Shown here: in pieces, positions 44,733-53,861 of the stretch
Position numbering within the stretch: the first letter of the stretch is position 1
How the letters are laid out: each line of letters starts with the position of its first letter
Origin: Silicimonas algicola
GTDB lineage: Bacteria > Pseudomonadota > Alphaproteobacteria > Rhodobacterales > Rhodobacteraceae
Length of the DNA stretch: 64,000 nucleotides
Direction: 5' to 3'
Assembly (NCBI RefSeq): GCF_003148765.1
Contig: NZ_QGGV01000009.1
Coordinates: 1-64,000 of the forward strand
Position numbers and translations under genes: made by a program
The notes under the pieces: model-generated
Database searches by the model: none
Told to the model about the DNA's origin: nothing
Seen by the model: only the letters and a program-made list of their open reading frames with translations

Positions 44733-44809
44733 GCGCTGGTAGCTCAGTTGGATAGAGTACTTGACTACGAATCAAGGGGTCGGGGGTTCGAATCCTCCCC
44801 AGCGCGCCA
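44733..44809 (+). tRNA. tRNA-Arg(ACG)
   Basis: This 77-base gene folds as a complete cloverleaf: acceptor GCGCTGG/CCAGCGC, anticodon stem CTTGA/TCAAG with the loop CTACGAA (anticodon ACG), T arm GGGGG-TTCGAAT-CCTCC, discriminator G and an encoded CCA. ACG is read as ICG after deamination. The part from the anticodon loop to beyond the CCA is duplicated at 53812-53861, which marks this gene as the attachment target of the element to its right. Confidence 0.97.
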
Positions 44810-44813
44810 ATTT
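44764..44813. repeat. attL core, 50-bp direct repeat
   Basis: The copy begins in the anticodon loop (ACTACGAATC...) and runs through the T arm and CCA to GCCAATTT. It is identical over 50 bases with 53812-53861; the flanking bases differ on both sides. Confidence 0.95.
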
Positions 44814-44874
44814 ACAAAGCAAAAACAACTACTTAACCTGTTTGAGTTTTCGGCCCGCGCGTCACCATGGAGGT

Positions 44875-44895
44875 CGTGCTAGCGTCATGCTAGCC
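44875..44895. repeat. GCTAGC repeats at the left end
   Basis: Two GCTAGC palindromes (44878-44883, 44889-44894), preceded by GT and by AT respectively, lie just inside attL. The same hexamer occurs three times near the right end (53667, 53675, 53724). They may be arm-type sites for the integrase. Confidence 0.45.
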
Positions 44896-44958
44896 GCCGA
44901 AGCCATTGTTGGTCGCCAAGACCTTGTCCAAGAGTGGTTCCCAAGTTAGGAATCGCCA

Positions 44959-45330
44959 ATGGTCGCATTCCTTCGAACGGTACTCTTGATCTTTGTTCCG
45001 CCGTTAGCACTTCTCATTGTGTCCGGAATCGTGATTGGGATTCAGTACGCTTGGCACGGACCCAACTGGTTCACCGATTTTGCTGGGATGGCTGGCGGCA
45101 GCTATGCTGCCATCCATCTTGCCAAGGAAGTTGCAAAGTCAGCCAAGATGGGCTGGGCGCTGTATGCGTTTTTGTTCTGTCTGCTCTATTCTGGCTTGTG
45201 CTGGTTTGTCGTTCTTCAAGTCGGCGATGCTTCTCAGCTGCCGTTGGCCGTGGGTAGTCTTGTCGGCGCAATCGTTGGCCTGACCTTGGTACTCCAAGAG
45301 CTTCGGGAAGAACCTTCGACTGACGTGTAA
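44959..45330 (+). CDS. Small membrane protein of the island
   Basis: This 123-residue protein has three hydrophobic segments (VLLIFVPPLALLIVSGIVIG; LYAFLFCLLYSGLCWFVVLQ; LPLAVGSLVGAIVGLTLVL) joined by a short basic/amphipathic stretch HLAKEVAKSAKMGW, and an acidic end. No family is recognised. It is the first gene inside attL and reads away from the tRNA gene; a membrane-acting effector or an exclusion protein are possible but unproven. Confidence 0.65.
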   Translation: MVAFLRTVLLIFVPPLALLIVSGIVIGIQYAWHGPNWFTDFAGMAGGSYAAIHLAKEVAKSAKMGWALYAFLFCLLYSGLCWFVVLQVGDASQLPLAVGSLVGAIVGLTLVLQELREEPSTDV

Positions 45331-45463
45331 AAGCGCCCCGGACACATGTCCCGACGCGCTTTACCGTTGCGAGCGACACGGAGAGTAATCGCTGACGGCT
45401 TGCTCCGTTTGAATTGCGTCCGACGGTTGCCTATGGGACGTGCATGTGGCTTGCCTGTGCCGC

Positions 45464-45691
45464 TCAACACAAGCCTTCCTCTTCCCACCGGCGAAGGCAC
45501 CGCAGCACGCCGCCATCGCCCTTTTCGCCGAGCCAGTCGATCCGGTCCAAGGCGCCAGCTTCCACTTCTTCGTGTATCTGCGCCTGAAACGCGTCAAACG
45601 AACCGTGGGCGCGGGCGATGTGCGAGAGCCGGGGTCGCCGAGCATGTTCGAGGCGGGCGATCCGCGCCAAAAGCGACCTTGGGCTACCCAT
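45464..45691 (-). CDS. Small hypothetical protein of the island operon
   Basis: This open frame of 75 residues (MGSPRSLLARIARLEHARRP ... RRWEEEGLC) is charged and probably helical. It overlaps the end of the preceding gene by eight bases, which supports it as the last gene of the reverse operon. No domain is recognised. Confidence 0.5.
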   Translation of the reverse strand: MGSPRSLLARIARLEHARRPRLSHIARAHGSFDAFQAQIHEEVEAGALDRIDWLGEKGDGGVLRCLRRWEEEGLC

Positions 45692-45983
45692 CGTCTTTCA
45701 GCACTTTCAGTGTCGCACCGAGGCGCAGGGCGGCAGCGAGGTTCGAGTCCGCCTCGGCTTGCCGATCTTCGGCCGCTTCCAGACGGCGCTGGTGCAGCAA
45801 CTTCTGCTCGGTGGGCGTGATGGTGTTGTCGGGGTCGTCTCTCGCTACGACACTTTCGTTGCGCCAATGGCGACCATAAGCGAACGTCACTCCCCGATCC
45901 TCCTCCGCCGGCACAGGGCGAGGCGTCGGGACGGACACGCGGGCCGGGTCGAACCAGCGATCGGGCGGGGACGCGCGTCTCAT
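45684..45983 (-). CDS. Hypothetical protein of the island operon
   Basis: This 99-residue protein has a basic, proline-containing start (DRWFDPARVSVPTPRPVPAE) and a helical C-terminal part rich in Ala, Glu and Gln (LLHQRRLEAAEDRQAEADSN), perhaps a short coiled coil. Its ATG overlaps the stop of the gene before it (45980-45983). No family is recognised. Confidence 0.6.
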   Translation of the reverse strand: MRRASPPDRWFDPARVSVPTPRPVPAEEDRGVTFAYGRHWRNESVVARDDPDNTITPTEQKLLHQRRLEAAEDRQAEADSNLAAALRLGATLKVLKDDG

Positions 45984-46396
45984 GTCACGACCCCCATGCC
46001 CTGGAGCGTTTCCATCGCGTCGGCCCGGACTCTCGGGTCCGAGCTGTTGCGCAGTGCTTCGAGACAGGTCGTCTTGATGGCTTGGTACATTTCCTCCGCC
46101 TGTTCTGGCGTCTCTGTCGCAGCCAGTTCTTCCGCAAAGCTGAAGCGGAACACCGTCTCAACCTCACGTCGGGACAGACACAGCACCTTGATGACGACCG
46201 GGCGGTCAGCCCGGATGCGGTTCGCAAACGCAACAGCCAGCTTCACCGCCCGTTCGTAGTCGGTGATTGGCCAACTCCACGCGAACTTGCCGTGGACCAT
46301 GACCTCGACGAACAAGTCACCGGGGCTTGGCGGGAGCACGGCCACTACGTTGTGGCCCGGACCCCAAAGGTCGTGTTCTGAGACAGTGAACTTCAT
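45980..46396 (-). CDS. Hypothetical protein of the island operon
   Basis: This protein of 138 residues begins MKFTVSEHDLWGPGHNVVAV at 46396, where the ATG overlaps the DUF5681-type gene stop; the frame is open further upstream but only as antiphase sequence. It contains a strand-rich first half and a helical second half with FAEELAATETPEQAEEMYQA. No domain is recognised. Confidence 0.65.
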   Translation of the reverse strand: MKFTVSEHDLWGPGHNVVAVLPPSPGDLFVEVMVHGKFAWSWPITDYERAVKLAVAFANRIRADRPVVIKVLCLSRREVETVFRFSFAEELAATETPEQAEEMYQAIKTTCLEALRNSSDPRVRADAMETLQGMGVVT

Positions 46397-46827
46397 ATCG
46401 CTTTGGCCTCCAATACGATGATCCGTTCTTCCAACTCTTCGACCGCCCTTATCCCGGCGACCGAGTTGATGCACGCGATCAGGGCGCGGCCTGTGTCCAC
46501 GTCCAGTTTGCCCTCCGAGACGGCCAACAGGATTTGATTGGCCTGCCCCGAGAGGGGCAGTTCGGTGTCCAAGTCGAACTCAACGCGCTCGCCCGTGGAC
46601 TTGAGTGGGGGCGCGAGACGGGCCAGCGACATGCTCAAAGCCTGCATGTCGCCCGCCAGTGCGGCGTCTACCGCCGTCTGCACCAGTGCCTCGCCCTTGT
46701 CGCTGAAGATCTTCTGAAGCCGCTGCCGCTTGTCGATGATGCCCCTTGGTCGTCCCTTGGGGTTGGGCGACGGCATCCCCGGAAACCAGTGACCCGGCTT
46801 CGCTTCGTCTGTAGATGCGTCTGTCAT
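46393..46827 (-). CDS. DUF5681-type phage-associated protein
   Basis: This 144-residue protein carries the motif WFPGMPSPNPKGRPRGIIDK near residues 14-33, typical of DUF5681 proteins often found beside phage packaging genes. The rest is helical and acidic. A role in DNA packaging (a small-terminase-like function) is an inference only. It lies 29 bases after the 249-residue gene and overlaps the next one. Confidence 0.7.
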   Translation of the reverse strand: MTDASTDEAKPGHWFPGMPSPNPKGRPRGIIDKRQRLQKIFSDKGEALVQTAVDAALAGDMQALSMSLARLAPPLKSTGERVEFDLDTELPLSGQANQILLAVSEGKLDVDTGRALIACINSVAGIRAVEELEERIIVLEAKAI

Positions 46828-46856
46828 GGCGTTACCCTGATGTAATCGGACTGCGA

Positions 46857-47606
46857 TCAGGCGAGCTTCCGGTAGACCTCGGCGCTCGCGTTCCGCTTGG
46901 CGCGAACCTCGTGCGCTTTGACGTGACCGACGATGCGGGAGATGCCAGCTTTGTCTTTCTGGATGACCGGCACGGTGCCCACTGCCTTCAACATCTCGCG
47001 CAAAACCAGCGGCCCCCTGTTGTCGATGTGGTCCCGTGCTGCGATCAACGCCTTCAGCCGTTTCGCCGTCTCCGGCTTCACCAGCTCGTTGTAGCGGAGG
47101 GTGAAGAATTGGTGCATCTCCTTCGTAATGGCGGAAAGCATCGGGGACGCGCCGCAGACGGCGGACAGCACTTCCGTATCTTTGTCGACCAGCGCTTGCT
47201 CCAAAAGCTTGATGCGGTCTGGGCCAGCAGCCTTGATGTGCGCCCGGATCTCGCCGCTCACCATTTTGCTCCCCTCCTCCTTCACGCCAGCGGTCAGGTC
47301 CTTCTGGAGCGCGTTGATGGTCGTCGTGAAGCGCTTCGAGGTGCCGTCGAGCATCTTGGTCACCGCTGTGAGCTTGCTGTTCGCGTAGTCGTCGGTCTTA
47401 AGAAGCGCGGCTTCCGGCGTCAGTGTCGGGTCGGCAAACGCGGCATTGCGCATGTCGTGGACTGCGCCGATGAACTTGTAGGCGGCATCGAAGCATTCGA
47501 CTGCGCCAGACACGAACGTCGAGGTGTCGGCGTCCACTCCATCAAGGTTGTCGATGATCTGCGGGTGAAGGTCGACACTGACCCGCACGTCAATTTCAGT
47601 GTTCAT
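46857..47606 (-). CDS. Hypothetical protein, first gene of the reverse island operon
   Basis: This 249-residue protein is mainly helical (long runs such as TPEAALLKTDDYANSKLTAV and KEMHQFFTLRYNELVKPETA) with a basic C-terminus (HEVRAKRNASAEVYRKLA). No cysteine cluster, signal or membrane segment is visible beyond one cysteine pair in the middle. No family is recognised. A 340-base AT-richer region with likely promoters lies upstream. Confidence 0.65.
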   Translation of the reverse strand: MNTEIDVRVSVDLHPQIIDNLDGVDADTSTFVSGAVECFDAAYKFIGAVHDMRNAAFADPTLTPEAALLKTDDYANSKLTAVTKMLDGTSKRFTTTINALQKDLTAGVKEEGSKMVSGEIRAHIKAAGPDRIKLLEQALVDKDTEVLSAVCGASPMLSAITKEMHQFFTLRYNELVKPETAKRLKALIAARDHIDNRGPLVLREMLKAVGTVPVIQKDKAGISRIVGHVKAHEVRAKRNASAEVYRKLA

Positions 47607-47946
47607 GTTGTCCTCGTGGTGTCTGATAGGGCTATGACTGCACTGTTACGGTAGCGGATCTCGCCTTCGGTCAGCTAGGAATATTATTTAATGACAATGC
47701 CTTAGGTCGAGTTCGAGTGCGTGATTGGGAATATTCGGGTTGACCGTTCGCCAACCCCTTCAGGAGACCATTGCGCGCAGAATGGGGAAGCAATGTTTGA
47801 CTGTCCGCTTAGAGCCACCATCGCTCTCAACGTAAGTGCGTGATCAAAACCCTGTATCATGGCTGGTCGTCGCATCTAGATATGGTTTCCTTTGTGCTCG
47901 CCATTCGGTAAAGTGTAGATGTTGAACCACAGCGAGGGCTCGAAGG
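47607..47946. promoter_or_regulatory. Divergent control region inside the island
   Basis: This 340-base region separates the reverse operon from the forward DUF5343/HEPN pair. It is lower in GC than the core genome. It contains GGAATATTA near 47678-47686 and the palindrome GAATATTC at 47729-47736, which could be operator half-sites, and TTGACC at 47740-47745. No gene was accepted here. Confidence 0.4.
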
Positions 47947-48603
47947 TTGTCAGCGAAGTTGCCATACATGGCCTCTCCAGGAACTGTTAAGACAGTCTTG
48001 GACAAGATCATTGAAGCGAAGACGCCGGAGCGTTTTACGCAGGATTTCTTGGAAACCAAGCTTGGCGCCAAAGGTGGTAGCGCTAGGCCTATCATACCGC
48101 TGCTCAAGCGTATTGGCTTTCTCCAGCAAGACGGATCAACGACTGAATTATATCGAAAGTTTAGGAATACATCGACCTCGAAGGCGGCAATGGCGAAAGC
48201 GATAAAGCATGGGTATGCAGAGTTATTTGAGCGGAATGAATACGCTTACGAACTTCCCAAGCCAAAACTCCTTGAGCTCATAGGTGAAGTTTCTGGTGCG
48301 GAGAAAGGAAATTCGGCAGATGCTTTGACCGCTTCGACATTCTTGAATCTTAAAGAGTATGCCGACTTTGAAGATGATTTAGAGATGGATGATACTGCCG
48401 AAGTCGCTCAAGTTAACATCTCTCAAAACCTTCCTGCTTCAAATCATCATACGCCAATGGAGCAGACAGTGGCGACGCAACAGGGGGGCACGCCACTGAA
48501 TCTATCCTACACAATCAATCTCAATCTCCCAGAGACGGACGACATAAAAGTGTTCAATGCCATTTTCCAATCTCTGAACGAAAACATCCTGAAGCGAAAT
48601 TGA
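47947..48603 (+). CDS. DUF5343 family protein
   Basis: This 218-residue protein begins with a TTG at 47947 that keeps the family-like LPYMASPGTVKTVLDKIIEA and the following ERFTQDFLETKLG; starting at the ATG 21 bases later would remove the LPY motif. The N-terminal half looks like a winged-helix-type domain (IIPLLKRIGFLQQDGSTTEL); the second half is acidic and probably flexible. GC is clearly lower than in the surroundings. The stop overlaps the next start (TGATG), so the two are made together. Confidence 0.78.
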   Translation: MSAKLPYMASPGTVKTVLDKIIEAKTPERFTQDFLETKLGAKGGSARPIIPLLKRIGFLQQDGSTTELYRKFRNTSTSKAAMAKAIKHGYAELFERNEYAYELPKPKLLELIGEVSGAEKGNSADALTASTFLNLKEYADFEDDLEMDDTAEVAQVNISQNLPASNHHTPMEQTVATQQGGTPLNLSYTINLNLPETDDIKVFNAIFQSLNENILKRN

Positions 48604-49184
48604 TGGACAGCCATAGCATCAGATATTTCATGCTCAACAACCTCAGCATTGAGAGTGAGGTTCGATCTGTTGCAAAGGAGCTCGATCTCGATCTTGGGCC
48701 AACGCACAAGCGCGAAAAAGAAATAGAGAATAAATTCTACCCTCAGTTTTCATTGCGGGTGAGAAGTGAGGCTGAGAGGATGGCGAGAAATTACACCATA
48801 TTCTACAGCTTGGAGAATTCCATCCGTGAACTCATTTCTGATGTCCTAAAGAAGCATGGAAACGACTGGTGGAGCGTGGCTGGTGTGGTTCCGACCGTCG
48901 TCAAAGATAACGCCGAAAAAAATCGAAAGAAAGAATTGGCTGCCGGTGTAACACCTCGATCGGGTAGTATGCTCGACTACACCAATTTTGGAGAGCTAGG
49001 TGAAATCATTAAATCTAACTGGAATGACTTCGCTGATATTTTTACCGATATTCAGGCGGTTGAGAGGATTCTAAAGAATCTCAATACGCTTCGCGCTGCT
49101 ATCGCGCATTGCACGCCTCTCGCGGAGGATGAGGAAGTCCGACTTCACCTTTCATTAAGGGATTGGTTCAGGCAGCAAGCCTAA
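48603..49184 (+). CDS. Swt1-type HEPN domain protein
   Basis: This protein of 193 residues matches the HEPN group found at the end of Swt1-like endoribonucleases. FYSLENSIRELISDVL near 68-82 and FGELGEIIKSNWNDFADIF near 129-147 precede the catalytic-type RxxxxH motif, R164-AAIA-H169, in NTLRAAIAHC. HEPN domains commonly act as RNases in defence and toxin-antitoxin systems. It is coupled to the DUF5343 gene and is likewise low in GC. RNase activity is inferred from the motif. Confidence 0.8.
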   Translation: MDSHSIRYFMLNNLSIESEVRSVAKELDLDLGPTHKREKEIENKFYPQFSLRVRSEAERMARNYTIFYSLENSIRELISDVLKKHGNDWWSVAGVVPTVVKDNAEKNRKKELAAGVTPRSGSMLDYTNFGELGEIIKSNWNDFADIFTDIQAVERILKNLNTLRAAIAHCTPLAEDEEVRLHLSLRDWFRQQA

Positions 49185-49328
49185 TCCTCAACGACTCTTG
49201 AGCCGGGTAATGCAGAGGCCGGGGCCCGCCTTACAGCGCCCAGCCCCCTGAGTCCCCTTGTGCCCCCTACTATAAAAAGTGCTGCATGGGGGTGTGCAAG
49301 GTGGGCCCATAGTTACAGCCTCTCTAGG

Positions 49329-51644
49329 TTAGGGGGCGGTAGGGGGCTCAGGGGGCGCGGGCAGGCGGGCCAGTTCCTGTTCCACGGCGTGCGCAAGGGC
49401 TCCCCGCCACCGCTGTGGGTTCCGCACGATCCAGACCTTCACTTTCGGTCGCCCGAACAGGGCGAAGGGTTTCGGCATCGGTTCAATGCCGACCTTCCGG
49501 GCGATGGGTGCGAGGAGTTTCCATTTGCGGCTGGTGTCCGCCCCCGCCGTGTGCATGGGCGAGAAGCCGAACACCTCGTCGAACAGGTCGTCCGCCGTGA
49601 TGAGGTCGCGAGGATGGCTCTCCACCAGCGCCGCCGCATTCTCATCCTCGGTCGTCATGCTGGCCGCGACAACCGCCCTCTTCGCGTCGTTCATCGCCGC
49701 CCGTGCGCCGGGGTTGAAACCGGCGATGTTGCGCGTCCGGAGGAACTGTCGAACCGAGGCGATGAATAGCGGATCTGGGTGGGGATAGAGGGTGGCGTAG
49801 AGCTGCCGGTAATACGCTTCGTCCCGAGGTTCGTCGGGATTCATGATTGCGTTCCAGCGCCGGTCGTCGTTGGTCAGCGGCAGACCGGTTTCATAGTTAG
49901 AGAAGATTAGGAAGCGACAACAGTTCTTCTCCGTGAACTGAAGGCCATATTTCATGTTGATGAAGCGATGCGAGGCGGTGACCATCGACTTAAGCTTCTC
50001 ACTGTGCTGCCACCGCTCGCCCGTGCCGCCCTCGTTGATCTCGTCCACCACGGCCAGCAGCTTGCGCGAAAGCTGGCCGTTGAACCCGCTGGAGAGGCTG
50101 GACTTGAGGTCGAAGTCCATGGCGACGTTCCCGGACCAGACATGCGCCAGCAGCGCGGCCAACCAGTTCCGCCCAACCCCCTGTTGGGTCGCGATCATCA
50201 GGTAATGGTTGTGCGGCAGGACGCCGGGGTGCTGTTCGATATGTGCCAGCCAATCGAGGAACCGCTCACGCTCGATCTTGCCCGGAACGAGATACTCTAC
50301 ATGATTGAGGAAGATGCCGATCCGCTGTGCCCAATCGCGCGGGGGATTGTGCGGGCGTGGCTTCCACATATTCAGGGCGTGTCGGCCGTCGTCGGCCTTA
50401 CAGAACTCCCCGGCGCTCGGGTCAAAAGTCATGGTATACGCCACCTGGCGGTTCGCGCTGCTCTGCCAGAGAGCGAAGGTTGGCACCTTCTTCTCGTCCT
50501 CATCCTCGGTGGCCGGGATCGTGGTCGTGTTGTGCTTCAGCAGTTGACCCATGCTGGGGGGCGGAAGCTGGACGGCAGTGTTGTCACGGAACACGATCAT
50601 CGTCTTTTCAGCGGCGATGTAGACGAGCGCCCTGTGCATTTCGCCAATGTCCATAGTCGGAGGGAGCGCGGCGGCTGAGAAGCCTTCTTCGCCAATCATC
50701 TTGAAGGCGGCGCGCGACTGCTCGGCTTGCTGTTTCTCGAATGCTTGGCGGCGGCGGATCGCATCAATACTGCGGCTCAGGTATCGGTCTTCTTTTGTCG
50801 CCTTCTCGCGCTTCCCAAGCTCGCTCTTGCGAAAGAGGCGCATCACCTGCCCATTGTTCGGGCTGTAGAAGGCGAGGATGCCGAGCAACGCCATGTCCGC
50901 CTCGGATTGGGACGGGTAGTTTGGCTTGCCTTTCCAATTGCCGTCCCAGAGCATCTGGAACTTCACGGCGTTCGCTGCCTTCTTGGCTCGCCCCAAAACC
51001 TCGTCGTCAATCTCCTTCTCCGGTTCGTCGGGAACCGGAGCCAGGTTGACCGAGGGAACCTTCTGGCGCAGGCGAAGCTCCGTAACCAGCGCATCAACCG
51101 ACTCCTGCTGCTCAGCGACGGGTAGTTCGCAATGAACCATGCCGGTGCAGATCAGGAAGCGGCGTTCACTATAGATCTCGACGTTTCCGACATGGCACCC
51201 CTTGCCGATGTCCGCCTGAACGATGAGGTGCAGACCGAGGCCGGATCGCGAAACCTCGGTATAGGTGTTCATGTGGGCGACGATGCGAAGGTAAGCGTCG
51301 CGATCCCCCTCGGTGGACCATTTGGTCGGGTCAACCGGCTGACCCTTCGCAAGCTGCGTCTGTTCGTTGACCCAATCGAGGTCGATACAGGCGAACGGAT
51401 CAGCGGCAGTGAAGACGAAGCCGATCCGCCAGCCTTTCTCCGATGCCACCCGGCAGGCGGTGTCAAAGTCCATCCACGTGCTCGGGTCGTTCACCTTGGC
51501 GGGCTGTCCGTCCGCCGCCCGGGGTGCCTTGTCGATGGCCGTTCCCGGCGTGACGCACCATTGCGAAAGCGCGCGAAGCTCTGTGGGCAGTCGCTCGTAA
51601 GGGCTCGTTTGCGGACCGATTCCGGCCTCTGTTACCGTGTGCAT
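49329..51644 (-). CDS. PrimPol-helicase replication protein (NrS-1-like)
   Basis: This 771-residue protein combines primase-polymerase and helicase parts. The N-terminal part has GFVFTAADPFACIDLDWV (acidic pair D88/D90) and SRSGLGLHLIVQ with H139, as in the phage NrS-1 primase-polymerase. The C-terminal helicase (DUF5906-like) has a Walker A-like TQQGVGRN at 487-494 in which Arg492 stands where lysine is expected, Walker B LLAVVDEINE, and FLIFSNYETGLPL. It would let the element start its own replication. It is transcribed in the same direction as the integrase. Confidence 0.85.
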   Translation of the reverse strand: MHTVTEAGIGPQTSPYERLPTELRALSQWCVTPGTAIDKAPRAADGQPAKVNDPSTWMDFDTACRVASEKGWRIGFVFTAADPFACIDLDWVNEQTQLAKGQPVDPTKWSTEGDRDAYLRIVAHMNTYTEVSRSGLGLHLIVQADIGKGCHVGNVEIYSERRFLICTGMVHCELPVAEQQESVDALVTELRLRQKVPSVNLAPVPDEPEKEIDDEVLGRAKKAANAVKFQMLWDGNWKGKPNYPSQSEADMALLGILAFYSPNNGQVMRLFRKSELGKREKATKEDRYLSRSIDAIRRRQAFEKQQAEQSRAAFKMIGEEGFSAAALPPTMDIGEMHRALVYIAAEKTMIVFRDNTAVQLPPPSMGQLLKHNTTTIPATEDEDEKKVPTFALWQSSANRQVAYTMTFDPSAGEFCKADDGRHALNMWKPRPHNPPRDWAQRIGIFLNHVEYLVPGKIERERFLDWLAHIEQHPGVLPHNHYLMIATQQGVGRNWLAALLAHVWSGNVAMDFDLKSSLSSGFNGQLSRKLLAVVDEINEGGTGERWQHSEKLKSMVTASHRFINMKYGLQFTEKNCCRFLIFSNYETGLPLTNDDRRWNAIMNPDEPRDEAYYRQLYATLYPHPDPLFIASVRQFLRTRNIAGFNPGARAAMNDAKRAVVAASMTTEDENAAALVESHPRDLITADDLFDEVFGFSPMHTAGADTSRKWKLLAPIARKVGIEPMPKPFALFGRPKVKVWIVRNPQRWRGALAHAVEQELARLPAPPEPPTAP

Positions 51645-51837
51645 GGTTGCTGCTCTTTCCTCAATCTGGGGCAGTGGCTTCGGTCTGGTTGGCGGTCGGG
51701 TTCTTGGAGCGGAACCCGACCGCTTCTCGGTTGGGGCTATGACCGCGCTGGAACGGGGGCACGCCCGACACAGGCGCGCGCTTACTGCATTCCGCGCTGT
51801 GGCGGCTGACGTTCGTATTCGTCATAATGGAGCCGAC

Positions 51838-52107
51838 TTACGCGGCGGCTTCGCTGGTATTGAGCTTCGATCCGCTGGCCAGCCAACGCAGCACATCAAC
51901 CTCGGCATACCAAATGCGGCGGGTGCCGGGAGGCTGGAAGAAGCGCGGTCCCTCACCGCGCGCCCGATACGCCTCGAAGGTCATGGGATGCACGTCAGCC
52001 ATGGATGCAGCTTCTTTGGTCGAGACTGGACGCCCTTTCGGCGTGTAGCCGAAATGCGCGCACAGTTCCTCAAAGGTAGCATCGGTCAGGTCGAGATATT
52101 CAATCAT
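51838..52107 (-). CDS. AlpA-like helix-turn-helix protein
   Basis: This 89-residue protein has an AlpA/excisionase-like DNA-binding part: VSTKEAASMADVHPMTFEAY, then RARGEGPRFFQPPGTRRIWY and EVDVLRWLAS. Such proteins switch integrase or replication genes of islands. ATG 52107 has AGGAGACC upstream. It lies between the replication gene and the integrase. Confidence 0.8.
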   Translation of the reverse strand: MIEYLDLTDATFEELCAHFGYTPKGRPVSTKEAASMADVHPMTFEAYRARGEGPRFFQPPGTRRIWYAEVDVLRWLASGSKLNTSEAAA

Positions 52108-52173
52108 GTCGGTCTCCTGAACAGGTGACCGGCGTTTCCCAATCCCGGCTTCGGGTGCCCCATACCGACACAC

Positions 52174-52372
52174 TACATGTAGTGGCTGGCGGTGGGCTAT
52201 GGGTATAGGCTAGCGAAAACTGGCAAAAGTCGGCAAGGGGTTTCTGCAGTCGGAGACAACGGCACGGCCCGCAGCGCGTCGGCTACAGCGCGATCCCGCC
52301 CCGCCGCCGGGGTAGGGGCGGCAGGCCCTGATCCCCGGCTGGTGCCCGATATTTTCGGGGTGGCAGCACGCA
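52174..52372. other. Spacer between AlpA-like gene and integrase
   Basis: This 199-base spacer contains no gene that can be supported. A GGGCGGGATCGC-type GC-rich stretch and TACATGTAG palindrome near 52172-52180 (ACTACATGTAGT) are seen; the palindrome is upstream of the AlpA-like gene and could be an operator. Confidence 0.35.
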
Positions 52373-53653
52373 TTACGCGCGGCTTTCCAAGGAGACGACA
52401 TTCGCGCCGCTGGCCTTTGCGGCTGCAATACGCGCAGCGCCCTCAATATAGTCGCCAATCGCCTGCACCTCGCGGTGATAGTCGCGGAGGTCGGAGGTCT
52501 GAAGGTAATGTTTCTGCGTGACTGACTGAGGCACATGGTTCGTGAGAAGCTCTAGCTTAGCGGTGTCCAGACCGCAGGCATTGATGCCGAGGGTGATCGC
52601 CGTTCGCCTGAGATCGTGCATTGAGAAACGCTTCATGCCTGTGCGCTTCGCCCACCGTTCAAACGGAGCACGGGGGTCCATGATGTGGCCGAGTTTTCCG
52701 CGCGATGGAAACACGAACTTGCTGTCGCTCAGGCCGCGCCGCAGTTTCAGCACCTCGACGGCCTGTGTGCTGAGCGGCAACCACACCGGGTTCTTGTTCT
52801 TCGGGTCGGGGATGTGCCACCAGCAGTTCGTCGGGTCGTCGTCGATGTTGACACGATCCCAAGTGAGAGTGCGGGACTCGTCTTTGCGCCCGCCGCAGAG
52901 GGTGACGAACTTGATGAAGTCCACACCAGTCGCGGCGTCGTCGTTGATGGCTTCGGCGCGAACGTCATCAAGCCAGTTCCAGAATTCGCCGATCTGCCGC
53001 TTGTCGATATGCTCGGTGCGCGGCGGTGACGGTTTTAAGTCCCGCTTCAAGATCGAGACCGGGTTGTGCAGGATGATCGGTGTCCCGTCCTGAAGGCGGT
53101 ATTCCTCGATGGCGAAGTTCAGCAACGTGCGCAACGTGACCATGTAGAGGCGCGCGGCGCTGGGGGCGGGCGCGGGTTTCTTGCGCAACCCCTCAGCGGC
53201 GATCTTCTCGAACAGCGCCCGGCATTCGGCAGGCGTGATGCTGGTGATGGCGCGGTCCTTCCACTTCTTGAACGCGGTTTCGATGTGACGGTCCATATCG
53301 CGCCGGGTGCTTTCCTTCAGCAGCCCTCGGGCCAAATAAGCGTCGGCCAGTTCGCGCAATGTGATCTGCTTGGTGGCATCGACCTTCTTCGCGTCCCGAG
53401 GGTCGATGCCTTCGCGCATCTGCTGGAGGATACTCTGCGCCCGCTTGCGAGCTTGGTCCTCGGTATAAAGACCAAATCTCCCGATGGTGACGATGACTGC
53501 TTTCCCGTTCACGCGCCCCTGGGCGACGAAGGCACGGACCCCGCTCGCAGTAATGCGCAGGCCGTATCCTGACACTCGGTCATCCCAGTGAATTTCGTAA
53601 CCTTTTGCGGGCGGTTGGACCCGGTCGATGAAGGTCTTCGTAAGCTTCGCCAT
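52373..53653 (-). CDS. int: P4-type tyrosine integrase
   Basis: This site-specific recombinase has 426 residues. The N-terminal arm-binding domain (DUF4102) is seen in AKGYEIHWDDRVSGYGLRI. The catalytic residues are R256 (CGGRKDES), H346/R349 (MHDLRRTA), H373 and the nucleophile Y383 (TQKHYLQ). It should integrate and excise the element at the tRNA-Arg gene. Its start faces the right attachment site, 158 bases away, and it is read inward. Confidence 0.96.
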   Translation of the reverse strand: MAKLTKTFIDRVQPPAKGYEIHWDDRVSGYGLRITASGVRAFVAQGRVNGKAVIVTIGRFGLYTEDQARKRAQSILQQMREGIDPRDAKKVDATKQITLRELADAYLARGLLKESTRRDMDRHIETAFKKWKDRAITSITPAECRALFEKIAAEGLRKKPAPAPSAARLYMVTLRTLLNFAIEEYRLQDGTPIILHNPVSILKRDLKPSPPRTEHIDKRQIGEFWNWLDDVRAEAINDDAATGVDFIKFVTLCGGRKDESRTLTWDRVNIDDDPTNCWWHIPDPKNKNPVWLPLSTQAVEVLKLRRGLSDSKFVFPSRGKLGHIMDPRAPFERWAKRTGMKRFSMHDLRRTAITLGINACGLDTAKLELLTNHVPQSVTQKHYLQTSDLRDYHREVQAIGDYIEGAARIAAAKASGANVVSLESRA

Positions 53654-53665
53654 GTGGCTCTCCTT

Positions 53666-53792
53666 GGCTAGCGTGCTAGCAACATACCAGCACGCTAGAA
53701 CCGTTTAGGACATTCTCGCGCCGGCTAGCAATGGCGTCAAGTATCTGACTATGTGAGGAAAAATTGGTTGATGCTGGCAATCGCTGGCAATC
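53666..53792. repeat. Repeats between integrase and attR
   Basis: GCTAGC-GT-GCTAGC (53667-53680) is an inverted pair; CAGCACGCTAG at 53688-53698 repeats it in reverse, and GCTAGC recurs at 53724-53729. A tandem decamer GCTGGCAATC follows at 53773-53782 and 53783-53792. Together these look like arm-type binding sites for integrase or excisionase. Confidence 0.5.
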
Positions 53793-53811
53793 GCAGGCGT
53801 GCCGCTGGAAA

Positions 53812-53861
53812 ACTACGAATCAAGGGGTCGGGGGTTCGAATCCTCCCCAGCGCGCCAATTT
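53812..53861. repeat. attR core, 50-bp direct repeat
   Basis: This copy of the 3-prime portion of the tRNA-Arg gene, from the anticodon loop to CCAATTT, lacks the 5-prime half and so is not a tRNA gene. It marks the right border of the element. Confidence 0.95.

Follow-up and report, generated by a model that had tools for sequence, protein, structure and literature searches.

PDC-M34, a widespread DUF5343–HEPN gene pair, as a candidate sensor–effector module of abortive infection

Two overlapping genes at positions 47947–49184 of the window, by which we mean the whole 64,000-nucleotide stretch of Silicimonas algicola DNA that was analyzed, form a real and well-conserved system that is already listed as a candidate under the name PDC-M34. 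We lean towards reading the pair as a self-contained two-gene sensor–effector module of abortive infection, in which a DUF5343 protein would hold a HEPN RNase in check until a phage is perceived. What is new is the anatomy of the system: a predicted winged-helix N-terminal domain that, among solved folds, comes closest to BrxA and SspB, a linker followed by a near-invariant C-terminal tail, and three interchangeable families of HEPN partners. The genes and their parts are as follows.

47947–48603, + strand: gene of the DUF5343 protein (PDC-M34A; 218 aa, TTG start), proposed sensor or regulator; based on Pfam, PADLOC and an AlphaFold2 model
47947–48369, + strand: N-terminal helical/winged-helix domain of the DUF5343 protein (residues 1–141; winged helix at about 28–75), confident in the model
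48370–48504, + strand: variable, low-confidence, disordered linker (residues 142–186; pLDDT about 52–56 over residues 151–190)
48505–48591, + strand: near-invariant C-terminal tail SYTINLNLPETDDIKVFNAIFQSLNENIL (residues 187–215; strand-helix), proposed HEPN docking element
48601–48605, + strand: TGATG stop/start overlap indicative of translational coupling (TGA at 48601–48603, ATG from 48603)
48603–49184, + strand: gene of the Swt1-type HEPN protein (PDC-M34B; 193 aa, ATG start), proposed RNase effector; based on Pfam, PADLOC and a structural model
49092–49109, + strand: Rx4H motif R164AAIAH169 of the HEPN protein

The preliminary description of this region had reported two overlapping genes with a TGATG junction and a higher AT content than their surroundings. 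Both the coordinates and the junction were borne out, a single base within TGATG being common to the two genes, and the GC content of the pair is about 46.5–47% (46.5% at 48001–49000) compared to 62–65% in its immediate surroundings and 60–66% for most of the window. The DUF5343 protein likely starts at TTG 47947, because a GAGGG sequence is located 8 nt upstream and the match to the profile begins at 47962, ahead of the internal ATG at 47968; for the HEPN protein, an alternative TTG start is listed at 48600, one codon 5′ of ATG 48603. Pfam assigns the first gene to DUF5343 (PF17278, E = 7.8e-45) and the second to HEPN_Swt1 (PF18731, E = 1.2e-11, 45.3 bits against a gathering score of 27.5), and the PADLOC profiles PDC-M34A and PDC-M34B match them nearly over their full length (4.2e-48 and 9.1e-37, respectively). 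Searches of PHROGs and NCBIfam gave nothing useful for the pair, and a search for promoters and terminators around it gave nothing convincing. The pair is adjoined by a divergent 249-aa gene at 46857–47606 (− strand) that has no Pfam match and displays a weak, trivial match to HamA (E = 0.023).

The pair resides in a 9.05-kb integrated element (window 44764–53861), and the features of this element agree with the satellite-like carrier that had been proposed earlier. Besides those given below, the element contains a DUF5681 gene, and no capsid genes were recognized in it.

44764–44813, + strand: attachment repeat at the 3′ end of tRNA-Arg and element boundary (50-bp perfect direct repeat, overlapping tRNA-Arg at 44733–44809)
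49329–51644: NrS-1-like primase/helicase
51838–52173: excisionase-like HTH gene
52373–53653: tyrosine integrase
53812–53861, + strand: second attachment repeat and element boundary (50-bp perfect direct repeat)

The adjacency of the two genes, on which the preliminary description had let its reading depend, is a general property of the family. A search with a profile of five DUF5343 proteins, which was built from DUF5343 only and from seeds that all had HEPN partners, found 80 DUF5343 loci; these span more than ten phyla, Woesearchaeota and Patescibacteria among them. A HEPN gene is located directly downstream in 75 of these 80 independent loci, and the adjacency is therefore not due to chance. 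In three further loci the start of a HEPN gene is visible before the contig end (L014, L053) or before an IS3-type insertion (L074), and the contigs of the remaining two (L036, L080) end too early to judge. The intergenic gap ranges from −17 to +17 nt across 83 aligned pairs, most of which overlap, and the evolutionary distances of the two proteins co-vary (Mantel r of 0.74, not reached in any of 5000 permutations). The family is nevertheless sparse, with DUF5343 present in 10 of 385 genomes of the class and in 11 of 398 and 6 of 284 genomes of two other samples. Viral contigs also carry the pair.

The defense-type setting supposed for the window’s pair did not generalize. Elsewhere, most neighbors of the pair are housekeeping genes of diverse kinds and a minority are mobile or defense genes (TIR, Gabija-like, integrases), and a third gene conserved beside the pair was not found across the loci. 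Guilt by association is thus weak for this pair, as its neighborhoods are for the most part not defense islands. Individual pairs do lie beside a RES-domain-like gene (L139), a TIR protein (L161) and an OLD/Gabija-like ATPase (L018/L096). Two others adjoin an apparent lepA gene (elongation factor 4; L137, about 1500–2733, and L054, 5983–7240), one of them in the window’s own family, and the side of lepA is possibly a recurrent insertion spot. The system is widespread and reaches into archaea and lineages with small genomes, but PDC-M34, DUF5343, PF17278 and PF18731 were not named in any paper found by a search of the literature. In this respect its designation as an uncharacterized candidate stands; it is to be amended in that PADLOC already carries the pair. 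Such PDCs are unpublished guilt-by-embedding candidates, most of which await experimental validation (2026 study, PMC12988326).

The HEPN protein is modeled with high confidence (pLDDT of 90). Its best solved fold is AbiF in complex with a noncoding RNA (8vz6; Foldseek probability 0.94; VIA Z of 7.9, 4.0 Å over 137 residues), followed by Csm6 (Z of 7.8) and a HEPN-MNT toxin (Z of 5.5), and a sequence search of the PDB returned only Csm6, at E = 0.024. The RxxxxH motif pointed out in the preliminary description proved to be strictly conserved, with both R164 and H169 retained in every one of the 83 HEPN proteins that were aligned. Taken together, the AbiF-like fold of the model and the invariant motif make RNase activity the natural inference. 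Participation of HEPN proteins in abortive infection and toxin–antitoxin systems is established (PMC3710099).

The DUF5343 protein (pLDDT of 84) is built from parts that differ sharply in conservation, with a mean column entropy that is lowest in the tail (0.63 bits), intermediate in the winged-helix part (1.53) and highest in the linker (3.15). The winged helix, which had been suspected from the sequence of the protein’s front, is well supported by both the model and profile comparison. Among solved structures, the N-terminal domain is closest to BrxA (3bhw, Z of 6.0, 137 residues aligned) and SspB (6juf, Z of 5.0, 143 residues), with the next fold at a Z of 3.7; Z values below 8 are beneath the tool’s safe level and may reflect a common arrangement, and the BrxA and SspB scores fall in this range. 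Foldseek by itself produced no significant match for the model, nor did it do so among viral models, and a PDB search with the sequence yielded peptide noise only. BrxA and SspB belong to anti-phage systems, and they have independently been reported to be mutually similar and to have a tripartite DNA-binding architecture in common with DUF4007 (PMC9240713, PMC12839542).

Alignment of the DUF5343 and DUF4007 profiles with hhalign gave scores of about 25–29, above those of all shuffles (28.9 compared to a maximum of 22.6 among 150 column shuffles, over 125 columns in the same register). Of the control profiles, MarR scored 24.8, also above its column shuffles, GntR 14.6 and BrxA 12.2, and a sequence match between DUF5343 and BrxA was not found. 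As MarR scores about as well as DUF4007, we scaled back the notion that DUF5343 is, by sequence, specifically derived from DUF4007, and DNA binding by DUF5343 may be presumed no further than for a generic winged helix. A specific kinship with BrxA and SspB is suggested by the fold comparison, and is suggestive only.

The tail is the most conserved part of the DUF5343 protein, and residues Y188, L192, L194, P195, T197, V202 and F207 are invariant among 79 DUF5343 proteins. We compared it with the identity of the partner in 20 more distant DUF5343 proteins, judging the tail on their C-terminal sequences because a quick regular expression missed several real tails. DUF5343 is partnered by three families of HEPN proteins, Swt1, DUF4145-like and Ymh, of which Ymh and DUF4145 are recognized HEPN families (PMC3710099). 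Thirteen of the 20 proteins adjoin a Swt1-type HEPN protein and four a DUF4145-like one (L007, L140, L141, L160; the Pfam DUF4145 score is below the cut-off for L140 and L141, the two that were tested, and L007 and L160 were assigned by sequence likeness). Ymh is a separate neighbor in one locus (L010) and is fused to DUF5343 in another (L008), and one DUF5343 protein (L006) has no HEPN protein nearby. The tail is present in all 18 DUF5343 proteins that have a separate HEPN partner and is absent from both the fusion and the HEPN-less protein. Furthermore, its wording follows the partner, with LP.T.D..VFNAIF accompanying Swt1 and SPESSAEQIDKIF accompanying the DUF4145-like proteins. Most simply, this distribution would reflect docking of the HEPN protein by the tail, although the decisive cases are few, namely the one fusion and the one HEPN-less protein. 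A search of viral contigs and plasmids for more DUF5343–Ymh fusions found none.

Two observations touch on this comparison. All four DUF4145-like HEPN proteins (L007, L140, L141, L160) carry K in place of R in their motif (KEVGDKSSH). DUF5343 or DUF5343-like proteins lacking a recognized HEPN neighbor (L006, 1417–2187, and L142, 196–1125) have another C-terminal segment, LPxxGtxWT..., and this segment may serve to dock some other partner.

Combining these findings, we propose the following mechanism, the first testable one for what has been a name on a candidate list. The HEPN protein would dimerize and then cut RNA through R164 and H169. The N-terminal domain of the DUF5343 protein, with its winged helix and BrxA/SspB-like fold, would bind nucleic acid, and its strand-helix tail would grip the HEPN protein and thereby keep the RNase off. 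A phage cue at the N-terminal domain, which might be the DNA of the phage or a phage protein bound to DNA, would then change the complex and free the RNase, and translation and phage growth would stop, resulting in abortive infection.

The strongest alternative, which we regard as possible and rather unlikely, is that the pair is a type II toxin–antitoxin addiction module, in which the tail of a DUF5343 antitoxin neutralizes a HEPN toxin, the winged helix represses the operon, and the pair persists by stabilizing mobile elements, with phage defense being incidental. A DNA-binding domain, a disordered linker and a toxin-binding tail encoded by an upstream, translationally coupled gene constitute the classic antitoxin arrangement. 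The layout predicted for DUF5343 matches it: the DUF5343 gene comes first and overlaps its partner, the pair is solitary among unrelated genes and is carried on an integrative element, and the modeled HEPN fold resembles the HEPN-MNT toxin. However, an operator-like palindrome was not found upstream of the window’s pair (half-sites could be missed). Plasmids, where addiction modules usually abound, also speak against this alternative, as tblastn found no DUF5343 match on 72,556 plasmid records; four weak matches to the HEPN protein were found on plasmids, and a search of plasmids with the tail alone gave no match. A tblastn search of phages for DUF5343 likewise found none. Finally, five loci (L020, L082, L159, L160 and L007, the last in a single-contig genome) combine an interrupted DUF5343 gene with an intact HEPN frame, which would be hard to tolerate if the HEPN protein were freely toxic; draft errors being possible, this is a hint that it is not. 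On balance, we favor sensor–effector abortive infection over a pure addiction module, while noting that the mechanisms of the two overlap.

It is improbable that the pair is a housekeeping or stress regulator in which DUF5343 acts as a transcription factor and the HEPN protein as a non-toxic RNA-processing or binding partner. The mannitol repressor MtlR is such a case among HEPN proteins, and both the mostly housekeeping neighbors and the MarR-like winged helix of the profile comparison would fit this role. The patchy presence of the pair within the class, its occurrence across bacteria and archaea with differing neighbors, its carriage by viral contigs and the strict invariance of the catalytic R and H would not. 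Control of the HEPN protein by an unrecognized structured RNA, to which the ncRNA-bound AbiF as best structural match of the model lends some appeal, is very improbable, as no noncoding block conserved between relatives, close strains excepted, was found in the 350 bp upstream or the 300 bp downstream of the pair, and the usual overlap of the DUF5343 and HEPN genes leaves no room for an RNA between them.

Compared with known systems, the pair has no substantive difference from PDC-M34, both components of which are matched and adjacent; PADLOC gives no mechanism for this candidate. With AbiF/Abi2 it shares the Rx4H motif and, in the case of AbiF, the closest solved fold, Abi2 and Swt1 belonging to one broad HEPN group (PMC3710099). 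In contrast to the ncRNA-bound AbiF, the pair’s HEPN gene is adjoined by the gene of a protein partner, and a conserved RNA was not found. HEPN-MNT toxin–antitoxin systems are likewise two-gene operons with the regulator upstream and a HEPN RNase, here a predicted one, downstream, but the regulator of the present pair is DUF5343 and not a nucleotidyltransferase. AbiJ-NTD sensor domains and CARF-HEPN proteins (PMC3710099) resemble the pair in coupling an exchangeable sensor domain to several HEPN families, whereas DUF5343 mostly stands as a protein of its own that carries a proposed docking tail, and a Pfam search gave no AbiJ-NTD match. Lastly, BrxA of BREX and SspB/DUF4007 of Ssp and type-4 BREX are linked to the N-terminal domain of DUF5343 as its closest solved folds and by the colinear alignment with DUF4007, but BREX and Ssp genes are absent from the conserved neighborhood of the pair. 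If this kinship is true, DUF5343 would help to explain what these poorly understood defense proteins recognize, since in DUF5343 this fold is tied to a simple read-out. We put forward, tentatively and as a doubtful extension of the model, that DUF5343 is a stand-alone, BrxA/SspB-related sensor of invader DNA that controls interchangeable HEPN RNases of at least three families via one conserved C-terminal tail that docks them; if so, the pair would amount to an immune system of minimal, modular design that joins DNA recognition of the BREX/Ssp type to the destruction of RNA.
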